Shown: positions 1-25,950 of the stretch, piece by piece | Numbering within the stretch: the stretch's first letter is position 1 | How the letters are laid out: each line of letters opens with the position of its first letter | Assembly: GCA_030695565.1 (NCBI GenBank) | Contig: JAUYRZ010000042.1 | Span: forward strand, 62,001-126,000 | Source of the DNA: Archangium sp. | GTDB lineage: Bacteria > Myxococcota > Myxococcia > Myxococcales > Myxococcaceae | DNA: 64,000 nt | Reading direction: 5' to 3' | Program-made: the position numbers and the translations under genes | The notes under the pieces: model-generated | The model's database searches: none | What the model was told of the DNA's origin: nothing | Seen by the model: the letters and a program-made list of their open reading frames with translations, nothing else

Positions 1-1
1 C

Positions 2-1756
2 CCGACGGACGCCGGGCTTCGCCTGGGCATCTGCATCGCGCTGCACACCCTGACGGCCGATGCCTTCCTCGACGGGGTGGCGGAGACCAAGCCGGTCACC
101 GTGCAGTTCGTCGCCGGCGGCTACCAGTCGGAGCTCGCCCGGGTGCCCGATCCCCAGGGTGTGTTCCAGGTGAAGGTGATGCGCAGCCGCTACGACATCC
201 TCCAGCACCAGCCGGGCGGGGTGTGGCCGTACTTCGAAGGCTTCATCGATCACGGCACCGCCGACATGACGAAGGATCAGCAGGCCAACTTCCGCGCCAC
301 CTCGCACCTGCTGCGCGGCGCGGTGCGGTTCGGCGGCCAGGCCTTCAACCCCAGCCTCTTCCCTCAGGACGTCTGGTTCAATGCCTACGGCACGCCGAAC
401 TGGCAGCAGTCGATGGTGACCAGCCAGGGCGGCAGCTACGAGCTGCGGCTGCTCGAGGGCTCCTTCCAGCTGTTCCTCAACACGCCGGCCATCTCGCTCT
501 TCGGCACCGAGCTGCGGAAGTTTTCGGTCACGCCGACCGCGAACCTGAACTTCGATCACGACCAGGAATACGACATCGACATTCCTTCATCGGTGCTCGA
601 GGGCTCCATCACCATCGACGGGCAGCCGCTGCCTGATGCGCGGCCGGGCTCGGACTACACCATCACCTACACGCGGCCGGGCGACGCCGACGCGACCATT
701 TTCTCGCACCACGAAGGCGGGCTGGCGGGCTTCACCTCGCTCATCCCCCGGGGCGCCTACGGCACCACCCTCGACTTCAACGGCGTGCCCAACCCGACCT
801 TGCCTTCACGCATCTTCGGCAAGTCGCTCCAGTCGTCGGTCGACCTGCGGCAAGACGCGGCGCTCAACGTGAACTTCCCCACCCACGCGATCGAGGGGAG
901 CATTCTCATCGACGGGGTGCCGCCGCGCTCGAACCCCAACTACAACTTCCAGCTCTACATGTTCGGCCGGGCAGGGGCGACCGCGGGCAACAGCTTCATC
1001 ATGTTCGAGGTGCCCCTCGACTCGAGCTCGTTCCGCATCAAGGCGTTCCCGGGGCTGTACTTCACGATCTTGAGCCTCGACGAAGGGCTGTCGGAAGGCC
1101 TCGCTTCCGGGTTTTGGGTGGTCGACCAGTACTTCCAGCTGAACGCTGATCGGTCGATGCCCATCTCCATCGAGACGGCGCGCCTGTCGGGGCGCATCAC
1201 CATCGACGGCAAGCCTCCGATTCCGAACCGCCGCGTGGGCACCTTCACCTTCCGCAACCGCGCGATGCAGGGCCAGTACAGCTTCTTCCAGAAGGGCTTC
1301 GAGGCCGGGGAAGACGGCTCGTTCTCGGTGAAGCTGCCCAAGGGCGAGTACGAGGTCTACTTCACCATCGACCGCGAGACGTACCCCGAGTACGCGTCGG
1401 GCCGTCAGCTGATCTTCTCGCGCGTGCCGCTGATGGAAGATGCGGTGCACGACATCAACTACGAGACGCTCGAGATCACCGGGCCGATCCGGGTGGATGG
1501 TTCGGTGGTGCGCGACACCATCGGCGGGGCGGAGGTCGGCCTGCGGCTCCAGCGTCAGCAAGACTTTCAGATCTTCGATTGGCGCTTCGACGGCGGCCGC
1601 GAGAACTACGTGCTGCGGGTGCCCAAGGGCAGCTACCAGCTCGACTTCGTGGTGTTCGAGAACGCCTTCGATGGCGTGGCGTGGGGCAATGCGCCGATGG
1701 GGCTGAAGTTGAACGTGGCTCAGCAGGGTGAGCCGTTCATGAACTTCGGCCGCTGA
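2..1756 (+). CDS. Repeat-rich beta-type protein, 5' partial
   Basis: The frame is open to the window edge, so the start lies upstream; a GTG at 77 is only an internal candidate. The protein consists of repeats of about 97 residues, each opening with a motif of the type (L/I)xGxIxIDGxPxP. Copies start near bases 308, 597, 891, 1185 and 1476, about 290 bases apart. Between the motifs are aromatic-rich strands and a recurrent (P/E)xGxYxL(F/D)(F/L) pattern, for example LPKGEYEVYF and VPKGSYQLDF. This resembles chained carboxypeptidase-regulatory-like (transthyretin-type) beta domains found in surface proteins. No catalytic motif is visible. The stop is followed by about 95 bases before the next gene. 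The family assignment is inference from the repeat pattern; the function is unknown. Confidence 0.75.
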   Translation, partial: PTDAGLRLGICIALHTLTADAFLDGVAETKPVTVQFVAGGYQSELARVPDPQGVFQVKVMRSRYDILQHQPGGVWPYFEGFIDHGTADMTKDQQANFRATSHLLRGAVRFGGQAFNPSLFPQDVWFNAYGTPNWQQSMVTSQGGSYELRLLEGSFQLFLNTPAISLFGTELRKFSVTPTANLNFDHDQEYDIDIPSSVLEGSITIDGQPLPDARPGSDYTITYTRPGDADATIFSHHEGGLAGFTSLIPRGAYGTTLDFNGVPNPTLPSRIFGKSLQSSVDLRQDAALNVNFPTHAIEGSILIDGVPPRSNPNYNFQLYMFGRAGATAGNSFIMFEVPLDSSSFRIKAFPGLYFTILSLDEGLSEGLASGFWVVDQYFQLNADRSMPISIETARLSGRITIDGKPPIPNRRVGTFTFRNRAMQGQYSFFQKGFEAGEDGSFSVKLPKGEYEVYFTIDRETYPEYASGRQLIFSRVPLMEDAVHDINYETLEITGPIRVDGSVVRDTIGGAEVGLRLQRQQDFQIFDWRFDGGRENYVLRVPKGSYQLDFVVFENAFDGVAWGNAPMGLKLNVAQQGEPFMNFGR

Positions 1757-1850
1757 CCCTGTTTCGCATCGACTGCTCTCGGAGGACCGGACAATTCGGG
1801 GGGCGTGGTTCTTCTCGTTTCCGACCCGCCACTGCGCGACGCTGCGCACC

Positions 1851-2573
1851 GTGATTGAGGTCGAGAACATCGTCCGCGACTTCGGGGCCTTCCGCGCCGT
1901 CGACGGCGTGAGCTTCACGGTCGAGCCCGGCGAAGTGGTCGGGCTGCTGGGCCCCAATGGTGCCGGCAAGACCACCACCCTGCGCGTGCTGGCGGGCCTG
2001 CTTCGACCCGCCTCGGGCGTCACCCGCATCGGCGGCGTCGACGTGCAGGTCGAGCCACTCCAGGCCCGCAGGCAGCTCGGCTTTCTGACCGCGAGCACCG
2101 GGCTCTACGACCGCCTCACCGGCCGCGAGATGTTGCAGACCTTCGGCCGGCTGCAGCGCCTCGACGAGCAGACGCTCTCTTCCCGCATCGCCGCGCTCAG
2201 CGAAGAGCTCGAGCTGAACGCCTTCCTCGACAAACGCTGCGGTTCACTCTCCAGCGGGCAGAAGCAGCGCGTCAACATCGCGCGCGCGGTGGTGCACGAC
2301 CCTTCGGCGTACGTGCTCGACGAGCCGACAGCCACGCTCGACCCCTTGGCGTCGCGCGACATTCTCGAGCTCGTGCAACGCGCGAAGGCCCGGCACAAGG
2401 CGGTGCTCTTCTCCACCCACCGCATGGAAGAAGCGGAGTACCTCTGCGACCGGCTGCTCTTCATGCGCGGGGGCCAGATCGTCGCTCGCGGCACCAGCAC
2501 CGAGCTGCTCACCCTGAGCGGCAAACAAAAACTGACCGACGCGTTCCTCCACTTCGCGGGAGCCACCGCATGA
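1851..2573 (+). CDS. natA: ABC transporter ATP-binding protein (NatA-like)
   Basis: A 240-residue ABC ATPase of the ABC-2 exporter class. Walker A is GPNGAGKTT, the signature is LSSGQKQR, Walker B is YVLDEPTATLD, and the switch histidine lies in FSTHRMEEAE. The start is GTG at 1851. Its stop overlaps the next gene's ATG by 4 bases (ATGA), so the two are translationally coupled and should form one transporter. In NatAB this pair extrudes sodium ions; the true substrate here cannot be read from sequence. Confidence 0.9.
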   Translation: MIEVENIVRDFGAFRAVDGVSFTVEPGEVVGLLGPNGAGKTTTLRVLAGLLRPASGVTRIGGVDVQVEPLQARRQLGFLTASTGLYDRLTGREMLQTFGRLQRLDEQTLSSRIAALSEELELNAFLDKRCGSLSSGQKQRVNIARAVVHDPSAYVLDEPTATLDPLASRDILELVQRAKARHKAVLFSTHRMEEAEYLCDRLLFMRGGQIVARGTSTELLTLSGKQKLTDAFLHFAGATA

Positions 2574-3820
2574 AGCCGGCCTGGCGAATTCTCCTCGGCA
2601 AGGAGCTGCTCGACGTGGCGCGCGATCGCCGCACCCTGGTGCTCACCGTGCTGCTGCCGGTGTTGCTCTACCCGGGCATCCTGCTGCTGATGGGCGCGAT
2701 CGTCGCCGCCGGCACGCAGCGGCTGAAGAACGAGCCGCTGGTCGTGGCGGTGGTCGGTCAGGCCACGGCCGAGCTGCTCGCGCGCAAGCCCGTGCCGGAG
2801 AAGACCACCTTTCAAGCGCAGGCCCGCGCTGAGGCCGAGCGGCTGCTGCGGGATCAACAGATCGCAGCCCTGGTGGAGGCCCCACAGAACGCGGCCGCCG
2901 AGCTGGAAGCCGGCCGGCAGGTGGTGGTCACCATCCTCTACACCAAGCGGTTCGATCGTTCGGTCGAGGCGCTCGATCGCCTGCGCCCGGTGCTGGAGAG
3001 CATCAACACCGACGCGCTCGAGCTGCGCCTCGAGGCGCGCCAACTCGAGCCGGGCTTCGTGCAACCGGTGAAGGCCGACGCGGTCGATCTCGAATTCCAG
3101 AAGGACCTGGGGCCCCTGATCGCCTCGCGGCTGCTGCCCATCGTGCTGCTGATGATGTTGATCCTCGGCGCGCTCTACCCCGCGGTGGATCTGACGGCCG
3201 GTGAGAAAGAACGCGGCACGCTGGAGACGCTGCTCGTCTCAGGCGCGAGGCCCGTCGACGTGATGGCCGCCAAGTACCTCACCGTGAGCGCCGTCGCGGT
3301 GGTGACCGCGCTGGCCAACCTCGCTGCGATGGCTGCCACCTTCGGGTTCGGGCTCTCGTTCGGCGGCAAGGCCACCACCACCTTCCAGCTCAGCGGAGGT
3401 CAGATGCTCACCATGCTGGCCTGCCTGGTGCCCGCGGCGCTCCTGCTGGCCGGGGTCTCGTTGACGGTGGCCTCCACCGCGCGCACCTTCAAAGAAGGCC
3501 AGTCGTTGATGTCGCCCCTGATGTTGGTGTGCCTGGCCCCGGCGCTCCTGAGCCAGATGCCCGGGGTCGAGCTGAACAACCTGACGGCCCTCATTCCGCT
3601 GCTCAACGTGGCCCTGTTGATCAAGGCCTCAGTTCTGGGGAACGCGACCCTCACGCAGGTGGTGCTGACCATGGGTTCGGTGCTGCTCTTCGCCCTCATC
3701 GCCCTGAAAGTGGCTGCAAAGGCCTTCAACAGCGAGGTTTTCCGGTTCGGCGGAACGGAAGGGTGGAGGGCGTTGTTCGGGGAGAGTAAGTCTGCAGCCA
3801 GGCAATCGAAGCACCGGTAA
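2570..3820 (+). CDS. natB: ABC transporter permease (NatB-like)
   Basis: A 416-residue ABC-2 type permease. One N-terminal membrane helix (about residues 22-45, after KELLDVARDRRTL) is followed by an extracytoplasmic domain to about residue 180. A cluster of about five helices then includes LLPIVLLMMLILGALYPAVD. The cytoplasmic loop motif EKERGTLETLLVSGARP is typical of NatB/ABC-2 membrane proteins, where it couples to the ATPase. It overlaps the ATPase gene by 4 bases. Substrate specificity is not determinable; NatB-type sodium export is the nearest named role. Confidence 0.88.
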   Translation: MKPAWRILLGKELLDVARDRRTLVLTVLLPVLLYPGILLLMGAIVAAGTQRLKNEPLVVAVVGQATAELLARKPVPEKTTFQAQARAEAERLLRDQQIAALVEAPQNAAAELEAGRQVVVTILYTKRFDRSVEALDRLRPVLESINTDALELRLEARQLEPGFVQPVKADAVDLEFQKDLGPLIASRLLPIVLLMMLILGALYPAVDLTAGEKERGTLETLLVSGARPVDVMAAKYLTVSAVAVVTALANLAAMAATFGFGLSFGGKATTTFQLSGGQMLTMLACLVPAALLLAGVSLTVASTARTFKEGQSLMSPLMLVCLAPALLSQMPGVELNNLTALIPLLNVALLIKASVLGNATLTQVVLTMGSVLLFALIALKVAAKAFNSEVFRFGGTEGWRALFGESKSAARQSKHR

Positions 3821-3844
3821 AACCGTGTAGTTCAAACCGTGTAG
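3820..3844 (+). promoter_or_regulatory. Direct repeat upstream of pspA
   Basis: The 11-mer AAACCGTGTAG occurs twice (3820-3830 and 3834-3844) with a 14-base period. It lies in the 76-base gap between the natB stop and the pspA start. A tandem protein-binding site or an accidental duplication are both possible; no clear -10/-35 pair was identified. Confidence 0.45.
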
Positions 3845-3896
3845 AGTCGTTCTTCGTTACAGCTTCCGTTTCCTCCCATCAGGAGCACGTTCATCC

Positions 3897-4631
3897 ATGT
3901 GGCAACGGTTCAGGCGCGCGATGCGCAGCTTCGTCGGTTTCTTCGTCAGCACCATTGAGGATCCCGAGCTCATCCTCGAGCAGAACATCCGTGACCTGAA
4001 CGATCAGGTTCCCAAGATGAACGAGTCGATCGCCATGGTTCGGGCGAACGTCACGCTGCTGGAGAAGGAGAACGCGAAATACAAGATCGAGGTCAATGAT
4101 CTCACCGCCAAGGTGAAGGCCGCCATTCAGGGTGGCCGCGACGATCTCGCCGCTCAGTACGCGACCCGGCTGCAGATGGAGAAGGGCGCCCTGGCCCGCA
4201 ACGACGCCCAGCTCGCCACCGCCCGGTCGGCCTACGACAAGGCCTTGAACGTGAAGAAGGCGTTCATGCGCGAGAAGGACAAGAAGACCAACGAGGCGAT
4301 GTCGGCCATCCGCGATGCGCGCCGCGCGAAGTGGCAGTCGAAGGTCGCTGACGCGATGGAGTCCTTCGAGGTCGGCGGCATCGACGCGACGCACGACGAG
4401 ATGCTCCGCAAGGTCGAGGAGCAGACCGCCGTCAACGAAGCGCGCATGCAGATGGCGCTCGAGTCGGTCGACACCCAGTCGATGAAGATCGAAGAAGAGG
4501 CCGAGGCGCTCCAGGCCGCTGAGCTGGTGAAGCAGTTCAAGATGGAGATGGGCCTGCAGAGCCCCGCGCCCGTGTCGGACGTTTCGCAGGGCGGCGAGAA
4601 GACCATCGGTAAGAAGGTCGAGGTCAAGTAA
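3897..4631 (+). CDS. pspA: PspA/IM30 (Vipp1) family membrane-stress protein
   Basis: A 244-residue, almost entirely helical protein. It has the PspA N-terminal signature (amphipathic helix MWQRFRRAMRSFVGFF, then the DPELILEQNIRDLND segment) followed by long charged coiled coils. The length matches the family, about 220-250. The ATG at 3897 is preceded by AGGAGC. PspA/IM30 proteins are ESCRT-III-like polymers on the inner face of the cytoplasmic membrane that counter proton leakage. None of pspB, pspC or pspF is adjacent. Instead the gene heads a run containing a solute-binding protein, a coiled-coil membrane protein, a lipoprotein and an ABC transporter. Confidence 0.93.
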   Translation: MWQRFRRAMRSFVGFFVSTIEDPELILEQNIRDLNDQVPKMNESIAMVRANVTLLEKENAKYKIEVNDLTAKVKAAIQGGRDDLAAQYATRLQMEKGALARNDAQLATARSAYDKALNVKKAFMREKDKKTNEAMSAIRDARRAKWQSKVADAMESFEVGGIDATHDEMLRKVEEQTAVNEARMQMALESVDTQSMKIEEEAEALQAAELVKQFKMEMGLQSPAPVSDVSQGGEKTIGKKVEVK

Positions 4632-4637
4632 CCCCGT

Positions 4638-4664
4638 TCGATGCGAACGGTGGTCTTCGGAGGA
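4638..4664 (+). repeat. Hairpin + GGAGGA element, copy a
   Basis: Sequence TCGATGCGAACGG, a short spacer, then TTCGGAGGA. The CGAA (4644-4647) and TTCG (4656-4659) arms can pair. Near-identical copies occur at 20468-20491 and 50340-50367. It lies in the pspA-4689 gap, ending 24 bases before the next start, too far for its GGAGGA to be that gene's ribosome-binding site. Confidence 0.6.
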
Positions 4665-4688
4665 AATCGCTGAGCTGAACGGTGAAAC

Positions 4689-5852
4689 GTGAGTGAGAAC
4701 CTGAGCAGCCCCCGGAAACGTCAAGGCCGGTGGCTGCTCGTTTCGTTTCTGGCGGCGCTCGCCGTCGCTTCGGCGGCGGCCTCGCGGCTGGGCTACGTCG
4801 ACCGCGCGCGTGATCGGCTCTACGGCCGTGCGCCCCGTCTTTCTCCCGGAGATTTTCCCGCGGGGGTCATGGCGCCCATCGATGACGTGGTGCGCATTCC
4901 CACGCGGGCGTTGATCATCGGGGTGGTGCCCCGGGGCAGCACCTCGGCGCTGCTCTGGGCCGCCGGTGACGCCGAGCGGGTGGGCCTCTTTCGCGCCGGC
5001 TACGCCATCGACGTGAAGGTGCAGCGGTTCGCGCGTGAAGAAGAGCTGCGCAAGGCGCTCATTCGGGGCGGCGAAAACGGCGGGGTCGATCTCGCCGCGA
5101 TGCCGGTCTCGTCGATGGCCATGAGCGCCTCGTTGCTGCACGACGCGTCGCCGCGGGTGGTGATGTTGTTGGGCCGCAGCCGGGGCCAGGAGGTGGTGGT
5201 GGGCAGGGGCATCACCACGCTGCAGGGCCTCGCTGGAAAACGCATCGGTGTCGAAGACCGGGGCTCGGCCTGGTACCTGCTGCTCTGGAGTCTCTCGCGC
5301 GTGGGTCTCTCGCTGCGCGACGTGAAGGTGGTGCCGCTCGATGGTGCCTACGCCGCGGGCGCTGCCCTCAAGACGGGCGAAGTCGACGCAGTGGCGGGGC
5401 TGCTGGGCGACGTGGATCCCGCCGCGCGGGAGGTCGGCGCGCAACAGCTCACCTCGACCGCCGATGCGCCGCACCTGCTGGCCACCGTGCTGGTCACCCG
5501 GGGTGACTTCGCCGCGCGGTACCCCGATGCGATTCGCCGGGTGATTCGGGGCGTGCTCGATGCGAACACCCAGGTGCTCAAGGACTCGAGCGAAGCCGCC
5601 CGGGTGTTGGGCAGCCTGGCTCCCCAGTTGGGGGATCCGACCGAGGCGATCGGCGCGGCCCCGCCTGCCACCCTGAAAGAGAACCTGGCCTTTTTCGGGA
5701 TCGCCGATGAAGCGCCGGTGACCTACGCCGAGTTGTTCAAGAGCGCGACTGAGCTGAACCAGAAACTCTTCGGTGCTCCGCCTGCTCCCGAGCCCGAAGA
5801 CACTGCGGATTTGGGAGCCCTCAAGTACGTTGCAACGCCGCAAACACCGTGA
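4689..5852 (+). CDS. NMT1/SsuA-like solute-binding protein
   Basis: 387 residues with an N-terminal membrane-spanning signal or anchor (about 15-35, LLVSFLAALAVASAAASRLG). A periplasmic-binding-protein type 2 fold follows: a first strand ALIIGVVPRGSTSALLWAAGD, a hinge LAGKRIGVEDRGSAWYLLLW, and TGEVDAVAGL, all characteristic of the NMT1/THI5/SsuA family that binds small organic ligands. GTG start at 4689; an in-frame TGA lies just upstream. No cognate SsuB/SsuC genes are present, so it may act as a sensor or scaffold next to PspA rather than as an uptake protein. The last 4 bases overlap the next gene's GTG. Confidence 0.78.
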   Translation: MSENLSSPRKRQGRWLLVSFLAALAVASAAASRLGYVDRARDRLYGRAPRLSPGDFPAGVMAPIDDVVRIPTRALIIGVVPRGSTSALLWAAGDAERVGLFRAGYAIDVKVQRFAREEELRKALIRGGENGGVDLAAMPVSSMAMSASLLHDASPRVVMLLGRSRGQEVVVGRGITTLQGLAGKRIGVEDRGSAWYLLLWSLSRVGLSLRDVKVVPLDGAYAAGAALKTGEVDAVAGLLGDVDPAAREVGAQQLTSTADAPHLLATVLVTRGDFAARYPDAIRRVIRGVLDANTQVLKDSSEAARVLGSLAPQLGDPTEAIGAAPPATLKENLAFFGIADEAPVTYAELFKSATELNQKLFGAPPAPEPEDTADLGALKYVATPQTP

Positions 5853-6679
5853 CCGATCAAACCCCAAGACGCAGCAGCAGCCTGAAGGCCGCCCTCTCGA
5901 TGCCCGCGAACTTCTTCGCGCTGGCGGCAGGTGGGGCCGCGTCGGCCGCGATGGGTGACTGGGTGCCGCTCGCCGCGGCAGGTGGGGCGTCGTTGCTCTA
6001 TTCGGTGATGCTCTCGATGTTGCCCTCGTTCCGCCGGGCGGTGCGCGCGAACCTGGAGGCGCAGGTCAGCTCGGACGTGGCTTCGCTCGAAGAGCGCGAG
6101 ACGTTGTTGGCCGAGCTCGCCCCTTCGCAGAAGGAGCACTACGCCGTCTTGCGCGAGCTGAAGGACCGCATCCTCGAGAGCTACGGGAAGATGCCGGGCG
6201 GCCGGGTGCTGGTGGCCAGCAGCGAGCGCCGGTTGGAGGCCCTGCTCACCAGCTTCCTGCGGCTGGTGGCGACCTTGAACAGCTACCGCAAGTACTTGAA
6301 CGCGACCGATCGCAAGGGCATCGAAGAAGAGCTGCGCATGCTCGAGGCCGACACGGTCGGTGAGAAGAACGAGCGGCTCAAAGAAGTGAAGCTGCGGCGC
6401 GTGGAGATCTTGAAGAAGCGGGTGGCTCGCTTCGTTCAGGCCGACGAGAGCCGTGAATTGGTGAGTCATCAGCTGGCCAGCATCGAGGACGTCTTGAGAC
6501 TGACCCACGAGCAGTCCATCGCCATCAGAGACCCCGAGGTCGTCAGCCGGCAGCTGGAAGCGCTGACCGCCGAGGTGAACGCGACCGAGGAGACGGTGAA
6601 GGAGATGGAGCAGTTCATGCAAATCACCGAGGAGTTCTCATCGACCACGCTGCCGTTGCCGCCGGAGAGAGTGCGATGA
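5849..6679 (+). CDS. Membrane-anchored coiled-coil protein
   Basis: 276 residues. Two adjacent hydrophobic segments (about 20-58: FFALAAGGAASAAMG and VPLAAAGGASLLYSVML) probably form a membrane hairpin. The rest is highly charged helix or coiled coil (from about 70 to 265) without catalytic motifs. GTG at 5849 overlaps the preceding stop (GTGA), and the stop overlaps the next ATG (ATGA), so it is embedded in the pspA operon. The helical build suggests a PspA partner or scaffold, but this is inference. A distant relation to XpaC-type proteins was considered and could not be shown. Confidence 0.7.
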   Translation: MTDQTPRRSSSLKAALSMPANFFALAAGGAASAAMGDWVPLAAAGGASLLYSVMLSMLPSFRRAVRANLEAQVSSDVASLEERETLLAELAPSQKEHYAVLRELKDRILESYGKMPGGRVLVASSERRLEALLTSFLRLVATLNSYRKYLNATDRKGIEEELRMLEADTVGEKNERLKEVKLRRVEILKKRVARFVQADESRELVSHQLASIEDVLRLTHEQSIAIRDPEVVSRQLEALTAEVNATEETVKEMEQFMQITEEFSSTTLPLPPERVR

Positions 6680-8298
6680 GCCCCCTCTCCCTTCGGGTGT
6701 GGGTTGGGGTGTGGGCCAAGTCCACGCGCCCGCTGCTCCCGCTCCTCTTGCTGATCGCCGCCGCCAGCTGTGGAAAGTGCACCAGGTCCTCGGCCACCAC
6801 CACCACCGGAGTCGAACGCGTCCTCCCCAGAGGCGCGGTCGGAGTCGTGGTCATCCCGTCCCTTGCCGCCGCGGGCCAGAAACTGCGCATTCTCGAAGCG
6901 CTCAAGGTCACCGCCTTCGCCGCCCAGCTGCGCGGCTTCGACGACGGCAAAGGTTTCGCCGACGCGCTGGTGAGCGAGCTGGGCATCGACGTACGCAGCA
7001 CCGAAGCGCTGGAAAAAGCCGGAGTCGACGGCGCAGGCTCCGCCGCGGTCGCCGCGTTGGTCACCGGCCACGGCTACTTCGCGCTGCCCCTCAAAGACGC
7101 CACCAGGTTCCACGACACGCTCCAGACCCTCGCGGCCCGCCGGCTCGGCGCGACCACGCCGGGTGAGAAGAAGTTCGGTGAGCTGACGGTGAAGACCTTC
7201 AGCGTCGGGGACAAGGCGAAGCTCGGCTACGTGCTGGCCAACGGCTACGCGTTGATCACCGACGGCGCGGGCATCGAGAAGCTCGCTGGCCTGGCCGCGA
7301 TGACCCAGAGCGATTCGCTGAGCGCCGACAAGGCGTACGCGGCCGAGGTCGACAAGCTCCCGAAGGATCGCGACGTGGTGGTCTACCTGCCGGGAGGAAC
7401 ACCGCTGCTGGCCCAGGCCCCGTTCACCGGGGTCACCGGCTCGATCTCGCTCACCCCCGCGGGGCTCTCCGTGCTGGCGAACGCGAGCTGGAAGGGAGAC
7501 CCCGCTCAGCTCGCCGCCCTCGAGCCGCTCACCGCGAAGTCGCTGCTCGGCTACCTGCCGGCCGATGCGTTCCTGGTGGCCCGCTACTCCGGTGAGCCCA
7601 GCAAGCTCGCGCCGTGGGCGAGGCAGGTGCTCGGCCCGTTCCTCAATCGCGCCTTCGACGAGAATGGCTTCGACTGGAAGACCGAGGTGCTCGATCAAGT
7701 GCAGCCCGGCGTGGTGGCCGCGTTGTCACTGAGCGAGGCGCCTCCGATCGACAAGGGCATGCCTTCGCTCGATCTGCGGCAGACCAATCCGTTCACCTAC
7801 GCGCACCTGTCCGGCGTGGCGGCTTCGAAGACCCCCGAGCAGGTGATGCCTGCGCTGGAGAAGATCGCCGCGCTCGCTCCGAAGTTCGGCGCGGAGATGT
7901 CGGTGCGGGAACGCGCTGACGGACAGAAGGCGGTCATCACCAGCTACGCCCAGGGCGAAGGCGTGCACTTCGCGCCGAAGGGTGAGCTGGTGTTCTTCGC
8001 CTCACCGGTGCAACGCCTCGACGCGCTGGTGAAGTCGCAGGGCAAGGGCACCGTGGGCGAGGGCCTGGGCACCGAAGCGCTCAACGTGGTGATCGATCTC
8101 AACAAGCTCGCGTCGTCGGTGCGCGCGTTGCCGGAGAGCGCGTGGGGGTTGGGTGGGTTCGCCATCAAGGCGACCACCGTGCGCTGGCTCGACGCGACGG
8201 ATGACTTGAAGCGCATCACGGTGACGGTCGGCGCGAAGGAGAAGGTCGTGCAGGCGAAGATCGTGCTCACGCTGGGCGCAGCGGCGAAGGCACCGTGA
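6676..8298 (+). CDS. Putative lipoprotein, DUF3352-like
   Basis: 540 residues. The N-terminus has a signal-like stretch LLPLLLLIAAASC with a plausible lipidation cysteine. The body contains repeated (beta-alpha) segments: LPRGAVGVVVIPSLAAAG, ALVTGHGYFALPLKDATRF, and DAFLVARYSGEP about 290 residues later. This resembles DUF3352-type periplasmic proteins, which have two similar halves; the assignment is tentative. The first 14 or so residues are encoded by a copy of the dispersed CCCTCTCCC element, so a downstream GTG (codons 8, 10 or 12) could be the original start. ATG 6676 overlaps the previous stop, and the end overlaps the next GTG. Confidence 0.7.
   Translation: MSPLSLRVWVGVWAKSTRPLLPLLLLIAAASCGKCTRSSATTTTGVERVLPRGAVGVVVIPSLAAAGQKLRILEALKVTAFAAQLRGFDDGKGFADALVSELGIDVRSTEALEKAGVDGAGSAAVAALVTGHGYFALPLKDATRFHDTLQTLAARRLGATTPGEKKFGELTVKTFSVGDKAKLGYVLANGYALITDGAGIEKLAGLAAMTQSDSLSADKAYAAEVDKLPKDRDVVVYLPGGTPLLAQAPFTGVTGSISLTPAGLSVLANASWKGDPAQLAALEPLTAKSLLGYLPADAFLVARYSGEPSKLAPWARQVLGPFLNRAFDENGFDWKTEVLDQVQPGVVAALSLSEAPPIDKGMPSLDLRQTNPFTYAHLSGVAASKTPEQVMPALEKIAALAPKFGAEMSVRERADGQKAVITSYAQGEGVHFAPKGELVFFASPVQRLDALVKSQGKGTVGEGLGTEALNVVIDLNKLASSVRALPESAWGLGGFAIKATTVRWLDATDDLKRITVTVGAKEKVVQAKIVLTLGAAAKAP
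6681..6717 (+). repeat. CCCTCTCCC dispersed element, copy 1
   Basis: CCCTCTCCC TTCGGG followed by a GGGTTGGGGTGTGGG tail: the degenerate arms of the dispersed palindromic family. Unusually, it lies inside the annotated N-terminus of the 6676 gene. Confidence 0.6.
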
Positions 8299-8951
8299 TC
8301 TCCACCGAGGCGCTGACCCGCGGTTATGACGATGGCGCGCGGGGCAAGGTGCGGGTGCTCGATGGGGTGGGGCTGCAGATCGCCGCCGGTGAGTTCGTGG
8401 CGATCGTCGGCCGCAGCGGGAGCGGGAAGTCGACGCTGCTGCACGTGCTGGGCGGGCTGGACTCGGGGTTTGTCGGTGAGGTCACCGTCGCGGGCACGAA
8501 GCTCGCCGGGTTGAGCGACCGGGCGCTGGCGAAGTTCCGCAATGAGTCGGTGGGCTTCGTCTTTCAGTCGTTTCATTTGATTCAGGGGCTGTCGGCGCTG
8601 GAGAACGTCTCGTTGCCGGCGGCGTTTTCTGCGAGTGAGGGCGAGGCGGCGCGCGCGAAGGAGGCGCTGGCGCGGGTGGGGCTGGGGGAGAAGACGTCGC
8701 GTTTGCCCAGTCAGTTGTCGGGTGGTGAACGGCAGCGTGTGGCGATTGCGCGATCGTTGTTCAATCGGCCGAAGGTGCTGCTGTGTGATGAGCCGACGGG
8801 GAACCTCGATGTGCAGACGGCCGATGAGGTGATTGCGTTGTTCAACTCGCTCAACGCCGAGGGGCTCACGATTCTGGCGGTCACTCATGAGGAGCGGTTG
8901 CGCTCAGCTGCCAGCCGGGTGCTCACTTTGATTGATGGGCGGTTGGTGTGA
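8295..8951 (+). CDS. ABC transporter ATP-binding protein (MacB/LolD class)
   Basis: 218 residues. Walker A GRSGSGKST, Q-loop FVFQSFHLIQGLSALENV, signature LSGGERQRVAIARS, Walker B VLLCDEPTGNLD, switch histidine AVTHEE. The Q-loop phrase and the NLD D-loop are typical of the MacB/LolD family, which powers lipoprotein or peptide extraction without itself moving substrate across the membrane. GTG 8295 overlaps the stop of the upstream lipoprotein gene. It pairs with the FtsX-type permease at 9005. Confidence 0.92.
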   Translation: MISTEALTRGYDDGARGKVRVLDGVGLQIAAGEFVAIVGRSGSGKSTLLHVLGGLDSGFVGEVTVAGTKLAGLSDRALAKFRNESVGFVFQSFHLIQGLSALENVSLPAAFSASEGEAARAKEALARVGLGEKTSRLPSQLSGGERQRVAIARSLFNRPKVLLCDEPTGNLDVQTADEVIALFNSLNAEGLTILAVTHEERLRSAASRVLTLIDGRLV

Positions 8952-8957
8952 CGCAGC

Positions 8958-9000
8958 CCCTCACCCCGGCCCTCTCCCCGCTTCGCAGGGCGAGGGAGAG
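8958..9000 (+). repeat. CCCTCTCCC dispersed element, copy 2
   Basis: CCCTCACCCC GG CCCTCTCCCC, then GCAGGGCGAGGGAGAG: imperfect arms of the family. It fills almost the whole gap between the ABC ATPase and its permease, and its last bases may act as the permease's ribosome-binding region. Confidence 0.65.
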
Positions 9001-9004
9001 CTAG

Positions 9005-10288
9005 GTGCGATCCTCGGCGCTTCGGAAGCTGGTGCGGTTGCAGTTGTCTCGCGACCGGCGCGGGGCGTTCAGCTCTGCGTTCGGAATTGCGATCGGCATC
9101 GCGTCGCTCGTGTTCTTCGTCGCGCTCGGCCTCGGCGTGGCCCGGGTGGTGCGGGAGAAGATCTTTCCGGTCGACTCTCGCCTCGTCGACGTGGTGCCTT
9201 CGCAGCTGGCCATCGGCCTCTTCGGCGGCGGCAAGCTGACCCAGGACGCAGTGGATCGCCTCGCTGCGTTGCCCGGCGTCGAGAAGGCCTACCGAAAGAT
9301 GAGCGTGCGGGTGCCCGCGGTCAGCTTCTATGACGGCGACTTCTTCGGCCGCCGCTTGCGCATGGGCATCGAGGTGATCGCCGTCGGCGTCGACCCCGAG
9401 TTCGTTCGCGCTGACGTGAAGCTGGGTGACTTCAGCGATCCAGGCCCCGGCAAACCGATCCCCACCATCGTCGCTTCGCGCCTGCTCGAGATTTACAACA
9501 AGACCTTCGCCCCGGCCCGTTCGCTCCCGCAGCTCTCCGCCACCATGCTGGTGGGCTTCAGCTTCCCGGTCGACTTCAACCGCAGCTTCGTCGCCGTGGT
9601 CGCGCCAGGTCCGGTGACCTCGACGCAGGCGCAGGTGGTCGGTCTCTCGGAGCGTGGCCTGCTGGCGGGCGCCACCATTCCCCTCGAGGTGGCCATTCGC
9701 ATGAACAAGGCCGCGAACGTCGACGCGGAGACCTTCAGCGGCGTGGCCCTGCAAGCGGGCTCACCTTCCGACGTGCCGCGCATCATCGCCGCCGTCAAAG
9801 AGATGGGCTTGCGCGTCGACGATCAAGAACGGCGCATGTCGGAGAACGCGGGCGCCGCCGTGGCCATCACCACGTCTGCGATGGCGCTGCTCTCGGCGCT
9901 GATTTGTCTCCTCGCGGCCTTCAACATCGCCCACGCGCTCTCGGCCGCCGTGCGGGCGCGTGAACGGGAGCTGGGCGTGATGCGCGCGGTGGGCGCCAAC
10001 CAACGCGACATCTTCAGCCTGGTGCTGGTCGAGGCGATGGTGCTCGGCGTGGGCGGCGGGCTCTTCGGCACCATCACCGCGCTCCTCGCCGCCTTCGGGG
10101 TGGATATGCTCTCGGCGCGCGTGCTCCCCGAATTCCCCTTCAAGCCCGACACGTTTTTCCTCGTCCCCCTCTGGTTGCCGCTGCTCGGCGTGGGCCTGGG
10201 GGTGTTGGCCGCGATCGGTGGCGCGTGGTTGCCGGCCCGTCGTGCAGCGCAGGTCGATCCAGCCCGGGTGCTGGCAGGGCAGGGCTGA
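9005..10288 (+). CDS. ABC transporter permease, FtsX/MacB family
   Basis: 427 residues with the MacB/LolC topology. There is one N-terminal helix (FGIAIGIASLVFFVALGLGV), then a large periplasmic domain of about 230 residues. Three C-terminal helices follow, with the conserved FtsX cytoplasmic phrase RERELGVMRAVGANQRDI and the closing LPARRAAQVDPARVL. GTG start at 9005. Together with the 8295 ATPase it should form a mechanotransmission-type ABC complex; the nearby lipoprotein and solute-binding protein are candidate partners. Confidence 0.9.
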   Translation: MRSSALRKLVRLQLSRDRRGAFSSAFGIAIGIASLVFFVALGLGVARVVREKIFPVDSRLVDVVPSQLAIGLFGGGKLTQDAVDRLAALPGVEKAYRKMSVRVPAVSFYDGDFFGRRLRMGIEVIAVGVDPEFVRADVKLGDFSDPGPGKPIPTIVASRLLEIYNKTFAPARSLPQLSATMLVGFSFPVDFNRSFVAVVAPGPVTSTQAQVVGLSERGLLAGATIPLEVAIRMNKAANVDAETFSGVALQAGSPSDVPRIIAAVKEMGLRVDDQERRMSENAGAAVAITTSAMALLSALICLLAAFNIAHALSAAVRARERELGVMRAVGANQRDIFSLVLVEAMVLGVGGGLFGTITALLAAFGVDMLSARVLPEFPFKPDTFFLVPLWLPLLGVGLGVLAAIGGAWLPARRAAQVDPARVLAGQG

Positions 10289-10289
10289 A

Positions 10290-11024
10290 GTGAAGCCGGC
10301 TGGCGTGATCGCGCGCGGGGTGCTGCTGCTGTTCCTCGCCTGGCTCTACGGCGGCGACGTGGTGCGCTGGGGGCAGGCGCAGACGGCCGAGGTGACCGCA
10401 CTCGCCGAGCTGCCGCGTCTGTGGCTGGGGCTGCTGGGTTGCGCGGTGGCGATCGGCGGCGCGGTGGTGCTGGTGAGGGGGCGCAAGCAGGGCCCTTCGT
10501 GGCGGCCGCTGCGGGCGCTCACCATCGCGGCTCTGGGGCTGCTCTTTCTCGACTTCGTGGTGATCAACTCGCGCCGCTCGCCGCTCTCTTCCGAGGAGCA
10601 GACCTTGCTCGCCGTGCAGTCGTTCGCTGAGCAGGCCAGCCGGGCTTCGGCCGTCGAAGCCGTGCCGCGTGATCCCGCCTTGCTCGGCTCGTTCCTCGAG
10701 GGCCTCGGCACCGTGCCTTTTTTCGTCAAGGGCGAGCGGGTCAGCGCGTGGAAGCTGGAGATTCGGGAGCGGTGTGCCGGGCCGGCCGTCGATCCCGGGC
10801 AGGCCGCGGTGGGCACGCTCCTCTACTGCGTGGCCTCCGATCGCCAGCAGGCCTGGGTGACCCTGGTCGGGGCTCCGATTGGGCAGGTGTTCGGCGTGCG
10901 GGGCATGGTGGCCACGAAAGACGGCTGGGTGGGTGACGTGCACGTCGCCCAGCCCGATCCCGAGGCAGAAGGCGAGCCTTCTGAACAACCTGTGTGGGGC
11001 GGGCCTACACAGGTCGAACCGTAA
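10290..11024 (+). CDS. Three-helix membrane protein of unknown function
   Basis: 244 residues from the GTG at 10290, one base after the permease stop; a longer in-frame start would overlap the permease by 70 bases and is rejected. Three hydrophobic segments (about 5-22, 44-63, 73-90) precede a soluble domain of about 150 residues with four cysteines and no recognised motif. It is the last gene of the run that starts with pspA. No family recognised. Confidence 0.75.
   Translation: MKPAGVIARGVLLLFLAWLYGGDVVRWGQAQTAEVTALAELPRLWLGLLGCAVAIGGAVVLVRGRKQGPSWRPLRALTIAALGLLFLDFVVINSRRSPLSSEEQTLLAVQSFAEQASRASAVEAVPRDPALLGSFLEGLGTVPFFVKGERVSAWKLEIRERCAGPAVDPGQAAVGTLLYCVASDRQQAWVTLVGAPIGQVFGVRGMVATKDGWVGDVHVAQPDPEAEGEPSEQPVWGGPTQVEP
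10988..11014. promoter_or_regulatory. Perfect 8-bp inverted repeat before the kinase gene
   Basis: ACCTGTGT (10988-10995) and ACACAGGT (11007-11014) are exact inverse complements separated by 11 bases. They lie over the last codons of the 10290 gene and 56 bases upstream of the kinase start. The arrangement suits a dimeric repressor or activator site for the kinase gene; it could also be a weak terminator, but no T-run follows. Confidence 0.45.
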
Positions 11025-11069
11025 CTTTCCTCCCATGGTGGCTTTTGGCGCGCTGTACGCTCCGGGTGC

Positions 11070-13010
<1,941 letters not shown>

Positions 13011-13058
13011 AGCGGTGAACCAGAGCGATCTGGTCTCTCTCGAGAAGGAACACCATCC

Positions 13059-14798
13059 ATGGTCCGCAAGAAGGCAGATGACCCGCTGGCGGGGCTCCCG
13101 CCGTGGGCGCAGAAACTCGCCCAGCGCTACTACACGCGCACGGTCAGCACGTTCGTGTTGTACGGCGCCGTTCGCGATTTGCAGCCGATCACCAAAGAAG
13201 ACGGCGGGCGCGACTTTTCGAACCTGAAGCAGTTCCTCGCTGACGATCTGTTCGGCGGGCGCGATCACGTCATCTTCTACGATCGCAGCTCGGGCATTCG
13301 CGCGGCGGCCACGGAGACGCAGCAGGATCTGAACCGGGCGCTGGCGGGCTACGACACGCTCTACGGCACCGACTTCGCCAAGGTGATGCCCCGCGATCCG
13401 GGCCGTGCGTTGCAGATCCTGGAGAACTACCTGCGCATGCGCGTGTCCGACGGCAAGTCGGTGGCGCTGGTGATCGACTTCGCCGAGACCATCGCGCCCG
13501 CGGGCGACATGTCTCACCTGCAGGCCGAAGATCGCTTCGTGCTGGCCACGCTGGTGAAGTGGGCTTCAGACCCGCAGTTCCTTTCGGGTGATCTCTCCAT
13601 CGTGCTGGTGGTGGAGAACCTGGCCGACCTCACGCCGCGCATCTCGCGTAACCCCTACGTGGCGAACATCGAGATCATCCTCCCCACCGAGGAGGAGCGG
13701 CTCGACTTCGTGAAGTGGAAGCTGGAGGGCAAGAAGCTGCAGTCGATCTCCGACGTCAGCATGCAGGCGCTGGCGAAGATCACCGCCGGGCTCTCGCGCA
13801 TCAACCTCGACCGCCTGCTGACCGAGGCGATCGAGTCAGGTCACAAGATCACCGCCGAGGTCTTGAAGGAAAAGAAGAAGGAGATCATCCAGGCCGAGTG
13901 CCACGGCCTGCTGGAGTTCATCGAGCCCGAGTACACGCTCGACGTGGTGGCAGGTCACGCCAAGGCCAAGAAGATGCTGCGTGACGCGTCTTCGGCGCTC
14001 AAGAAGGGCCGCATCGAGGTGATGCCCATGGGCTACCTCGTGTCGGGCCCGGTCGGCACCGGCAAGACGTTCCTGGTCACCTCGTTCGCCGGTGAGATCG
14101 GCGTGCCGTGCGTGAAGTTCTTGAACTTTCGCAGCCAGTGGCAGGGCGTGACGGAGGCGAACCTCGAGAAGATCTTCAACCTGCTCAAGGCGCTGTGGCC
14201 GGTGGCGGTGATGATCGACGAGGCCGACGCGTTCCTGGGTGACCGTGATGCGGGCGGCGACTCGGGTACCTCGAGCCGCATCTTCGCGTCGATCGCCAGC
14301 TTCATGGGCAACACGGCCTTTCGTGGGAAGATCGTGTGGTTCCTGCTCACCTGCCGGCCCGACCTGCTGCCCATCGACTTGAAGCGTCAGGGCCGCGCCG
14401 AAGAGCACATCGCGTTGTTCTACCCGCAGACCGATGCGGAGCGGGACGAGCTGTTCAAGGCGATGCAGAAGAAGACCAAGGTGAAGGTCGAGTTCCCCGA
14501 CTTCTCCAAGCTCACCTCGGGCCAGACGTATTCGGGCGCCGACATCGAGGCGATCCTGGTGCGCTCGAAGTTCCGCGCGATGGTCGAAGGCCGCGAAGAG
14601 GTCATCACGGCCGACGTCGAGGCGGTGGTGAAAGACTTCATTCCGCCCAGCTACCCGCTGGAGATCGAGTTGCAGAACCTGGTCGCGGTGCAGGAGTGCA
14701 CCAGCCGTGATCTGCTGCCCGACGCCTTCAAGTCGCTCGAGCGCGACTTCGTCACGCGGCGGGTCAAGGAGATCAAGATGCTCCTCGAGGAGAGGTAA
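13059..14798 (+). CDS. AAA+ ATPase with degenerate N-terminal AAA half
   Basis: 579 residues. The C-terminal AAA+ module has Walker A GPVGTGKT (about 331-338), Walker B VAVMIDEADAF, a sensor-1-like stretch IVWFLLTCRPDLL and an arginine-finger region LKRQGRAEEHI. The N-terminal half has a Walker-B-like strand (SVALVIDFAETI) and sensor-like LSIVLVVENLADLTPRI but no P-loop, the arrangement seen in Ycf46-type AAA proteins. ATG at 13059, 48 bases after the kinase. No protease or substrate domain is fused, so it is probably a remodelling ATPase; partner unknown. Proximity suggests a link to the kinase, but this is only inferred. Confidence 0.85.
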   Translation: MVRKKADDPLAGLPPWAQKLAQRYYTRTVSTFVLYGAVRDLQPITKEDGGRDFSNLKQFLADDLFGGRDHVIFYDRSSGIRAAATETQQDLNRALAGYDTLYGTDFAKVMPRDPGRALQILENYLRMRVSDGKSVALVIDFAETIAPAGDMSHLQAEDRFVLATLVKWASDPQFLSGDLSIVLVVENLADLTPRISRNPYVANIEIILPTEEERLDFVKWKLEGKKLQSISDVSMQALAKITAGLSRINLDRLLTEAIESGHKITAEVLKEKKKEIIQAECHGLLEFIEPEYTLDVVAGHAKAKKMLRDASSALKKGRIEVMPMGYLVSGPVGTGKTFLVTSFAGEIGVPCVKFLNFRSQWQGVTEANLEKIFNLLKALWPVAVMIDEADAFLGDRDAGGDSGTSSRIFASIASFMGNTAFRGKIVWFLLTCRPDLLPIDLKRQGRAEEHIALFYPQTDAERDELFKAMQKKTKVKVEFPDFSKLTSGQTYSGADIEAILVRSKFRAMVEGREEVITADVEAVVKDFIPPSYPLEIELQNLVAVQECTSRDLLPDAFKSLERDFVTRRVKEIKMLLEER

Positions 14799-14799
14799 G

Positions 14800-14852
14800 G
14801 CCCCTCTTCCTTCGGGAGAGGGTCAGGGTGAGGGTCGAACATCCTCACCCTG
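14800..14852. terminator. Double hairpin between convergent genes (dispersed element, copy 3)
   Basis: CCTCTTCC TTCG GGAGAGG forms one imperfect hairpin. CAGGGTGAGG (14824-14833) and CCTCACCCTG (14843-14852) form a perfect 10-bp stem with a 9-base loop. It lies between the AAA+ gene (plus) and the macroglobulin gene (minus), so it may end transcription from both sides; no clear T-run is present. The sequence belongs to the dispersed CCCTCTCCC family. Confidence 0.6.
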
Positions 14853-14858
14853 AGTTCT

Positions 14859-25780: not shown

Positions 25781-25805
25781 CCCTCTCCCCGAGAGGGGGA
25801 GAGGG
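25781..25805. repeat. CCCTCTCCC dispersed element, copy 4
   Basis: CCCTCTCCCC (25781-25790) and GGGGAGAGGG (25796-25805) form a perfect 10-bp stem. A short tandem ACGCTCTCACGCA-type repeat precedes it. Confidence 0.75.
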
Positions 25806-25850
25806 TCGGGGAGAGGGTTGTCGGTCGCATTCCCGTCCCGCAACAAACGG

Positions 25851-25904: not shown

Positions 25905-25950
25905 CCCTCTCCCCAACCCTCTCCCCCTCGGGGCCCTCGGGGAGAGGGGG
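25905..25950. repeat. CCCTCTCCC dispersed element, copy 5
   Basis: Two CCCTCTCCCC units and a GGGGAGAGGG arm (25939-25948); the inner pair is 25917-25926 with 25939-25948. With copy 4 it brackets the terminator and fills most of the 249-base gap 25733-25981. Confidence 0.7.

Follow-up and report, generated by a model that had tools for sequence, protein, structure and literature searches.

A nine-gene PspA and AAA+ ATPase cluster in Archangium and other Myxococcota, with a possible role in membrane maintenance

Gene content of the cluster

We analysed a window of 64,000 nt from Archangium sp. (GenBank assembly GCA_030695565.1, contig JAUYRZ010000042.1, positions 62,001 to 126,000; contig C105 of genome G000 in our numbering), which contains a cluster of nine genes on the forward strand at positions 3897-14798, starting with the gene for PspA, a member of the ESCRT-III superfamily, and ending with a gene for an AAA+ ATPase. 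The original prediction had described seven same-strand genes (3897-11024), and these open reading frames were confirmed on that strand and with close to the predicted spacing, the junctions being +57, -4, -4, -4, +53 and +1 bases, thus with two gaps of more than 50 bases (57 and 53) rather than one. However, the block does not end at 11024, as a conserved kinase gene (11070-13010) begins 45 bases further on, and the AAA+ gene (13059-14798), likewise conserved, follows 48 bases past the kinase gene. The AAA+ ATPase, by which the locus can be placed among known PspA-AAA+ systems, had been overlooked. The features of the locus are:

3839..3847, forward strand: -10-like motif GTGTAGAGT, putative operon promoter; the pattern is shared upstream of pspA in relatives
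3897..4631, forward strand: PspA (ESCRT-III superfamily), 244 aa; PF04012 5e-19, the only PspA_IM30 protein above cut-off in the genome
4599..4610, forward strand: KTIG codons, PspA residues 235-238, candidate AAA+ recognition site; conserved C-terminal tail motif
4689..5852, forward strand: solute-binding protein of NMT1/SsuA type; hydrophobic stretch at the N-terminus, by eye an anchor; PF09084 3e-9
5849..6679, forward strand: coiled-coil protein, coiled coil after two N-terminal hydrophobic helices; no Pfam family above cut-off, AlphaFold pLDDT 84
6676..8298, forward strand: lipoprotein, predicted TP0453-like fold; AlphaFold pLDDT 87, Foldseek 5.6e-5, Z 10.5
8295..8951, forward strand: LolD/MacB-class ABC ATPase; PF00005 8e-33, LolD 231.5 bits
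9005..10288, forward strand: FtsX/MacB/LolCE-class permease; PF02687 6e-18, PF12704 (MacB_PCD) 3e-7
10290..11024, forward strand: third membrane protein; by eye three hydrophobic helices, many orthologs with a WLYGGD-type segment; no Pfam match above cut-off
11070..13010, forward strand: Ser/Thr kinase with PEGA domain; PF00069 1e-35, PF08308 5e-5
13059..14798, forward strand: two-domain AAA+ ATPase, C-terminal domain active, N-terminal half degenerate; PF00004 2.7e-20

The earlier assignments of PspA, an NMT1-type binding protein and an FtsX-class ABC pair were borne out by matches to the families PspA_IM30, NMT1, ABC_tran and FtsX. The lipoprotein had been called DUF3352-like, for which we found no basis, as it has no Pfam family at E <= 0.1, nor an NCBIfam match. 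The absence of the classical psp partners was confirmed, with no PspB or PspC family among the nine cluster proteins; a PspC-domain protein is encoded on another contig of the same genome (L164, C56:49622-49786), apart from the only PspA.

Conservation of the cluster in relatives

One genome scan yielded 55 named loci, mostly from the same family as the window, in which we labelled the genes for PspA (50 loci), binding protein (50), coiled-coil protein (52), lipoprotein (50), ABC ATPase (46), FtsX permease (45), third membrane protein (34), kinase (41) and AAA+ (36). All nine genes are present in 21 loci, and many loci end at contig ends or at the 10-kb flank. Among these loci the genes are not scattered, the labelled ones following the same order in 55/55, a count slightly favoured by tallying the kinase and ABC genes only when they come after a cluster gene; farther out, the parts are scattered over three contigs in G036. 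PspA and AAA+ are encoded on the same strand, 5.3-11.7 kb apart, in 35 of the 55 loci, and are also the two best-conserved proteins in comparison with Myxococcus xanthus (L107), with 80 and 75% identity respectively, versus 38-64% for the other seven (FtsX 64%, ABC 61%, coiled coil 55%, binding protein 54%, kinase 48%, lipoprotein 39% and third membrane protein 38%). A Myxococcus-like whole cluster was also present in a record named Comamonas sp. KCTC 72670 (L114), a name which is probably wrong.

Within a sample of 195 Myxococcota genomes, matches were obtained for AAA+ in 131 (E <= 1e-60), the coiled-coil protein in 124 (E <= 1e-8), PspA in 149 (E <= 1e-5) and the lipoprotein in 150 (E <= 1e-6). 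AAA+ and PspA occur together in 124 genomes, with 7 having AAA+ only, 25 PspA only and 39 neither (Fisher 4e-17, relatedness ignored). The association is also seen in the same order outside the window's family (14, 2, 4 and 29 genomes respectively, p 4e-7, again ignoring relatedness), and the counts outside family f1 are 33, 2, 25 and 39. The seven AAA+-only genomes, five of family f1 and two of f7, have a completeness of 74 to 93%. Family f5 contains many PspA-negative genomes, and its sole listed member with PspA (G091) is also the sole one with the AAA+ and coiled-coil proteins.

PspA and its C-terminal tail

The PspA of the window meets the gathering score of PF04012 (69.2 bits, cut-off 33.9) and is the sole PspA_IM30 protein above cut-off in a whole-genome search; a single PspA match is likewise found in 88 of the 91 genomes of the window's family that have any. 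Weak matches of its coiled coil to cholera/enterotoxin B were taken as chance. We divided the PspAs into classes by HMM score (140 bits) and not by contig linkage, save for nine AAA+-linked ones. PspAs of the window's class have a C-terminus of KTIG plus about 7 more residues, those of importer operons bear KALG, KELG, KNLG or KDLG, and the end is RTM(G) or similar in a third group. The pattern [KR][TSAEN][ILVM](G or end), set post hoc, was found in the last 40 residues of 65/66 distinct class sequences (4.0 expected by shuffling) versus 0/33 other PspAs. These counts follow the reassignment to the class of L103, a KTIG-bearing PspA cut by the contig start, before which they were 65/66 versus 1/34, and the single class miss is L188. 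A broader pattern, [KR]x[ILM](G or end), matches 64/66 class PspAs (L142, ending on KTVG, and L188 fail) versus 1/33 others, where the sole positive is a KKLG within the canonical helix. It also matches 9/9 PspAs from outside the order that share a contig with the AAA+ gene (0.6 expected). The usual LxxLKxKL C-terminal helix, a trait of most other PspAs in our collection which lies outside the Pfam definition of PspA, is present in 0/66 PspAs of this class versus 21/34 others. In a PspA tree, very long branches were obtained and the AAA+-linked PspAs were not shown as one clade. From these sequence patterns, the K-x-I/L/M-G tail is a candidate recognition site for the AAA+ ATPase.

The AAA+ ATPase and the kinase

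The AAA+ protein consists of 579 residues, with the Pfam AAA family matching the C-terminal half alone (residues 327-452), where GPVGTGKT and IDEAD motifs are present and the core residues are invariant in 7 sequences. By eye, and following the domain description given in PMC11237479, the N-terminal half reads as a degenerate AAA domain. The best solved-structure matches are AFG2 and CDC48, and the NCBIfam matches include CDC48 and, lower down, CdvC, all far below cut-off. Over its whole length the protein shares 43% identity with the AAA+ encoded in an operon of another Myxococcota family (L149). Among plasmids from outside the phylum, a search with the AAA+ gave 6 records with 27-31% identity; no PspA-annotated neighbour was present in the 5 of 6 records examined and PspA itself had no plasmid match, and hence plasmids offer no independent test. 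We also considered a defence system, for which a PADLOC scan of 7/9 proteins gave weak generic AAA and permease matches only.

The kinase and AAA+ genes are adjacent in 34/34 loci in which both are labelled, as well as in two loci that have no PspA next to the pair (L175, L177). This pairing could mean that AAA+ and kinase target one another or transcription, and that kinase phosphorylation controls PspA without any disassembly of polymer by the AAA+. We consider this doubtful, since no relative of the window's kinase was found in six loci of the importer type that encode PspA, coiled coil and AAA+ (L149, L150, L152, L231, L232, L233).

Binding protein and coiled-coil protein

The binding protein matches NCBIfam SsuA_fam below cut-off (4e-20) and lacks an OmpA domain. 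Its description as an orphan holds in so far as there is no importer at the locus; however, an OmpA-domain relative with an SsuBC-type importer is encoded in the same genome, by a second, importer-type operon (L051 5775-10701, contig C114). This operon contains genes for a 225-residue protein, the OmpA-domain binding protein, SsuC- and SsuB-type proteins and a second coiled-coil paralog, with no AAA+ gene beside it.

The coiled-coil protein is probably a membrane partner of PspA. Its descent from Snf7 or PspA is possible but unsupported by profile, Pfam and Foldseek comparisons, with Snf7 absent among the best 25 of 74 Pfam families. In VIA-align, Z values of up to 10.7 were obtained, although a shared arrangement may be all that such values reflect in helical models.

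The lipoprotein and the ABC module

A lipobox-like start [AGS]CxxCG is present in 39/50 lipoprotein orthologs, with AASCGKC in that of the window. With the AlphaFold model of the lipoprotein, Foldseek placed TP0453 of Treponema pallidum in the first six places (best E 5.6e-5), and VIA-align gave Z 10.5 with two TP0453 entries (4.5 A over 217-220 residues) and 9.4 with two more, followed by TiME (7.6), TM1622 (7.1), DcrB (6.3) and RseB (6.0) as best other proteins. The two proteins share the predicted fold and the lipid anchor, but the lipoprotein model is about twice as long, and the aligned residues, scattered over positions 41-535 of the model, are 8% identical. TP0453 itself was proposed as a lipid carrier in the part of PMC5421087 consulted. 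The adjacent transporter genes share a LolD-like ATPase and an FtsX-fold permease with the type VII ABC transporters LolCDE and MacB, but score below the curated NCBIfam cut-offs (LolD 231.5/307.75, lolCE 63.1/362.45 and MacB 212.3/966 bits).

Modular gain and loss

The arrangements in relatives show that the locus is composed of modules, as judged from gene content: PspA with binding protein and membrane coiled coil, ABC transporter with lipoprotein, and kinase with AAA+. The 4-base overlap of the coiled-coil and lipoprotein genes is shared by the window and near relatives (L087, L090, L091 and others), while in Myxococcus, Corallococcus, Pyxidicoccus and Hyalangium the two are separated by 120-300 bases or by inserted genes. 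In family f7 (L165, L166) the order is PspA, coiled-coil remnant, lipoprotein, ABC, FtsX, kinase and AAA+, with no binding protein, and variants lack a labelled kinase (L182) or a called coiled coil (L167). The remnant (L165 8998-9192, L166 and L182) consists of 64-67 residues in which the hydrophobic hairpin alone is kept, a hint that this is the portion of the coiled-coil protein that is required. Genome G163 has a cluster without binding protein and with AAA+ on another contig (L142, L176).

Within the window's own family, L129 (genome G025) consists of PspA, binding protein, coiled coil, another gene, kinase and AAA+, without the transporter module, and L184 (G011) is arranged similarly as far as the kinase, where the contig stops; the lipoprotein match is absent from both genomes. 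The gene between coiled coil and kinase in these loci, which belong to two genera, appears crotonase-like by eye (L129 10890-11675, L184 1773-2552). Conversely, lipoprotein, ABC and FtsX genes are found without any PspA match in three genomes of family f5 (L168, L169, L181). The transporter module is thus separable, being lost in L129 with PspA, coiled coil, kinase and AAA+ kept, and standing alone in f5. A large LptD/OstA-like gene (by eye) was also observed between the coiled-coil and lipoprotein genes of L036 (10482-12959).

Such observations would fit an ordinary conserved chromosomal neighbourhood, in which common promoters or a low rate of rearrangement, and not a joint machine, hold the genes together. 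In favour of this, parts are found alone elsewhere, and in several lineages (L104, L108, L120) the block is interrupted by inserted genes. It is improbable, however, given the unbroken order of labelled genes in 55/55 loci, the recurrence of the set in further families of the order and class (L142, L165-L167) and the coordinated presence and absence across genomes.

Upstream region and repeats

The 9-base pattern GT[AGC]TA[ACG][AG]GT, picked after the upstream sequences had been seen, occurs less than 100 bases ahead of pspA in 28 of 46 sequences, including the window (0.3 expected, mononucleotide shuffling). As the GTGTAGAGT-type motif is common upstream of pspA, the transcription unit probably begins at this gene. 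No terminator-like site was found in the gap between the PspA and binding protein genes (4632-4688), no sigma-54-type site was found before pspA by one strict pattern, and no RNA families reached gathering score in positions 1-20000 of the window. Upstream of pspA, at a distance of 76 bases, are genes for an ABC-2 type ATPase and permease (1851-3820), kept there in near relatives (L087-L092) and a few others, and not next to pspA in Myxococcus and Corallococcus loci.

A dispersed repeat, CCTCACCCCGGCCCTCTCCC, occurs in 4 copies with <=3 mismatches (8959-8978, 14814-14833, 25797-25816 and 25906-25925; 0.03 expected), of which one sits in the ABC-FtsX gap and an inverted copy past the AAA+ gene. 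By eye, sequence near 6680-6720 resembles the repeat, and may have extended the N-terminus of the lipoprotein.

Proposed function of the cluster

Parts, order, conservation, modularity and tail motif are seen in the sequences, with the functions proposed by analogy with the named families (Vps4/ESCRT-III, Lol/MacB, SsuA and PEGA kinases). On this basis we propose, with a probability of roughly 0.55, that the nine genes encode an AAA+-driven, ESCRT-III-like PspA machine for membrane maintenance, with a lipid or lipoprotein transporter attached. At its core, PspA would polymerise on the stressed inner membrane and be held there by the two-helix coiled-coil protein, and the AAA+ would grip the K-x-I/L/M-G tail of PspA and extract subunits from the polymer, as Vps4 does on ESCRT-III. 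The LolD/FtsX-class ABC transporter and the TP0453-like lipoprotein would form a separable module, carrying lipid or lipoprotein from the treated membrane toward the outer membrane. In what is the least certain step, the periplasmic binding protein and the PEGA-domain kinase may pass the state of the envelope or of a ligand into the cycle. The original prediction of a membrane-integrity or lipid-trafficking system with ligand sensing fits PspA, the Lol/MacB-type ABC transporter and the TP0453-like lipoprotein, but missed the kinase, the AAA+ and the modularity.

In favour of this proposal, the AAA+ is encoded beside PspA, co-occurs with it in the 195 genomes, family f5 included, and shares the top conservation relative to M. 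xanthus. Support also comes from the presence of the same AAA+ family in PspA-importer operons of other families, from the tail motif setting the class apart (65/66 versus 0/33) and recurring in 9/9 sequences outside the order, from the dissociation of the transporter module and from the predicted fold of the lipoprotein.

Several observations weigh against this proposal. PspA is present and such an AAA+ absent in the g35 genomes G044, G049 and G053, as well as in G056 (86% complete), and the two proteins are encoded on different contigs in G036, G037, G042 and G163. Upstream sequence is available for L091 and L138, but PspA is not there; the genome of L091 (G001) has no PspA match at all, either by an assembly gap or by real loss. 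The link between tail and AAA+ is not a strict one, because the g35 PspA L045 keeps KTIG in a genome without such an AAA+ (G044), and the tail patterns were set with the sequences already in view. The coiled-coil model has no significant Foldseek match to a fold in the PDB, its profile comparison with PspA gave a non-significant 0.2%, and no MIT-type Pfam family was found in the AAA+ at E <= 0.01.

A more far-reaching version of the proposal, which we regard as tentative, is a trans-envelope repair machine in which a Vps4-like AAA+ reads the short K-x-I/L/M-G tail that stands in for the usual C-terminal helix of PspA, and recycles the PspA coat, coupled via coiled coil and kinase to a Lol-type ABC transporter feeding the TP0453-like lipoprotein; if true, one operon would drive both inner-membrane remodeling and outer-membrane lipid supply. 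Somewhat less likely is that the Lol/MacB-type transporter and TP0453-like lipoprotein are themselves the core, acting as an envelope lipid or lipoprotein carrier, with PspA and the coiled coil patching the membrane and AAA+ and kinase having separate tasks. The movement of the lipoprotein, ABC and FtsX genes as a unit, occurring without PspA in family f5, agrees with such a carrier, as do the predicted lipoprotein fold and the wider distribution of the lipoprotein (150 genomes versus 131 for AAA+, the latter at a far stricter threshold). On the other hand, PspA and AAA+ are the most conserved parts, and are found together in L129 without the transporter, in a genome (G025) without lipoprotein match. 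The AAA+-driven PspA machine is the reading we prefer over a carrier core, and over the regulatory pairing of kinase and AAA+ discussed above, which is the more doubtful of these two.

Comparison with known systems

PspA-AAA+ and PspA-Snf7 neighbourhoods have already been published, including operons of PspA, TM-Snf7, AAA+, ABC ATPase, permease and PBPB-OmpA (Ravi et al. 2024, main text of PMC11237479). With these operons, as described there, the cluster shares PspA, a double AAA+ with inactive N-terminal domain, a solute-binding protein, a membrane coiled coil and ABC genes. Their SsuB/SsuC importer pair and OmpA domain have no counterpart in the cluster, which in turn has a LolD/FtsX pair, a TP0453-like lipoprotein, a third membrane protein and a PEGA-domain kinase beyond the published set. 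The kind of operon described in the main text of that survey is present in Myxococcota as L149 (PspA, OmpA-domain binding protein, SsuC-type permease, SsuB-type ATPase, coiled coil and AAA+), with the same order in L150, L152, L231, L232 and L233 and permeases 32-39% identical to that of L051; the OmpA domain was examined in L149 and L051. The terms 'Myxococc', 'NMT1' and 'serine' do not occur in the main text of PMC11237479, and the Deltaproteobacterial PspA-Snf7 neighbourhood cited in it (AKJ06548.1) may be the locus described here. Our literature searches, covering titles and abstracts, found none that reports such a nine-gene set in myxobacteria. As far as these searches show, what is new is the form found in myxobacteria, in which the nine genes include a Lol/MacB module, a TP0453-like lipoprotein and a kinase, together with its modular gain and loss and the tail; parts of this may be contained in the supplement of PMC11237479.

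The E. coli operon pspFABC of the classical phage shock response (see also the main text of PMC11237479) has PspA in common with the cluster, but differs in that no PspB or PspC family was found among the nine cluster proteins, a result which for PspB, as for PspF, does not extend to a genome-wide search. With ESCRT-III/Vps4 of archaea and eukaryotes, as presented in the part of PMC11746142 consulted, the cluster shares an ESCRT-III-superfamily polymer protein beside a classical-clade AAA+, and differs from it in having PspA in place of Snf7, and an AAA+ in which a second, degenerate AAA half is present and an MIT domain was not found. As to the disassembly of PspA coats in bacteria, that structural study, in the part consulted, supposes chaperones or PspF in the place of Vps4, and the main text of the 2024 survey states that it is not known how AAA+-less PspAs regulate assembly (PMC11237479). 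Here a PspA, usually the only one of its genome, shares a conserved block with a candidate motor and bears a candidate recognition tail. As the cluster is also present in the laboratory organism M. xanthus, and tail and motor are easily deleted or mutated, a block combining an ESCRT-III-related PspA with a probable ATP-driven motor makes the disassembly of a bacterial membrane coat testable.

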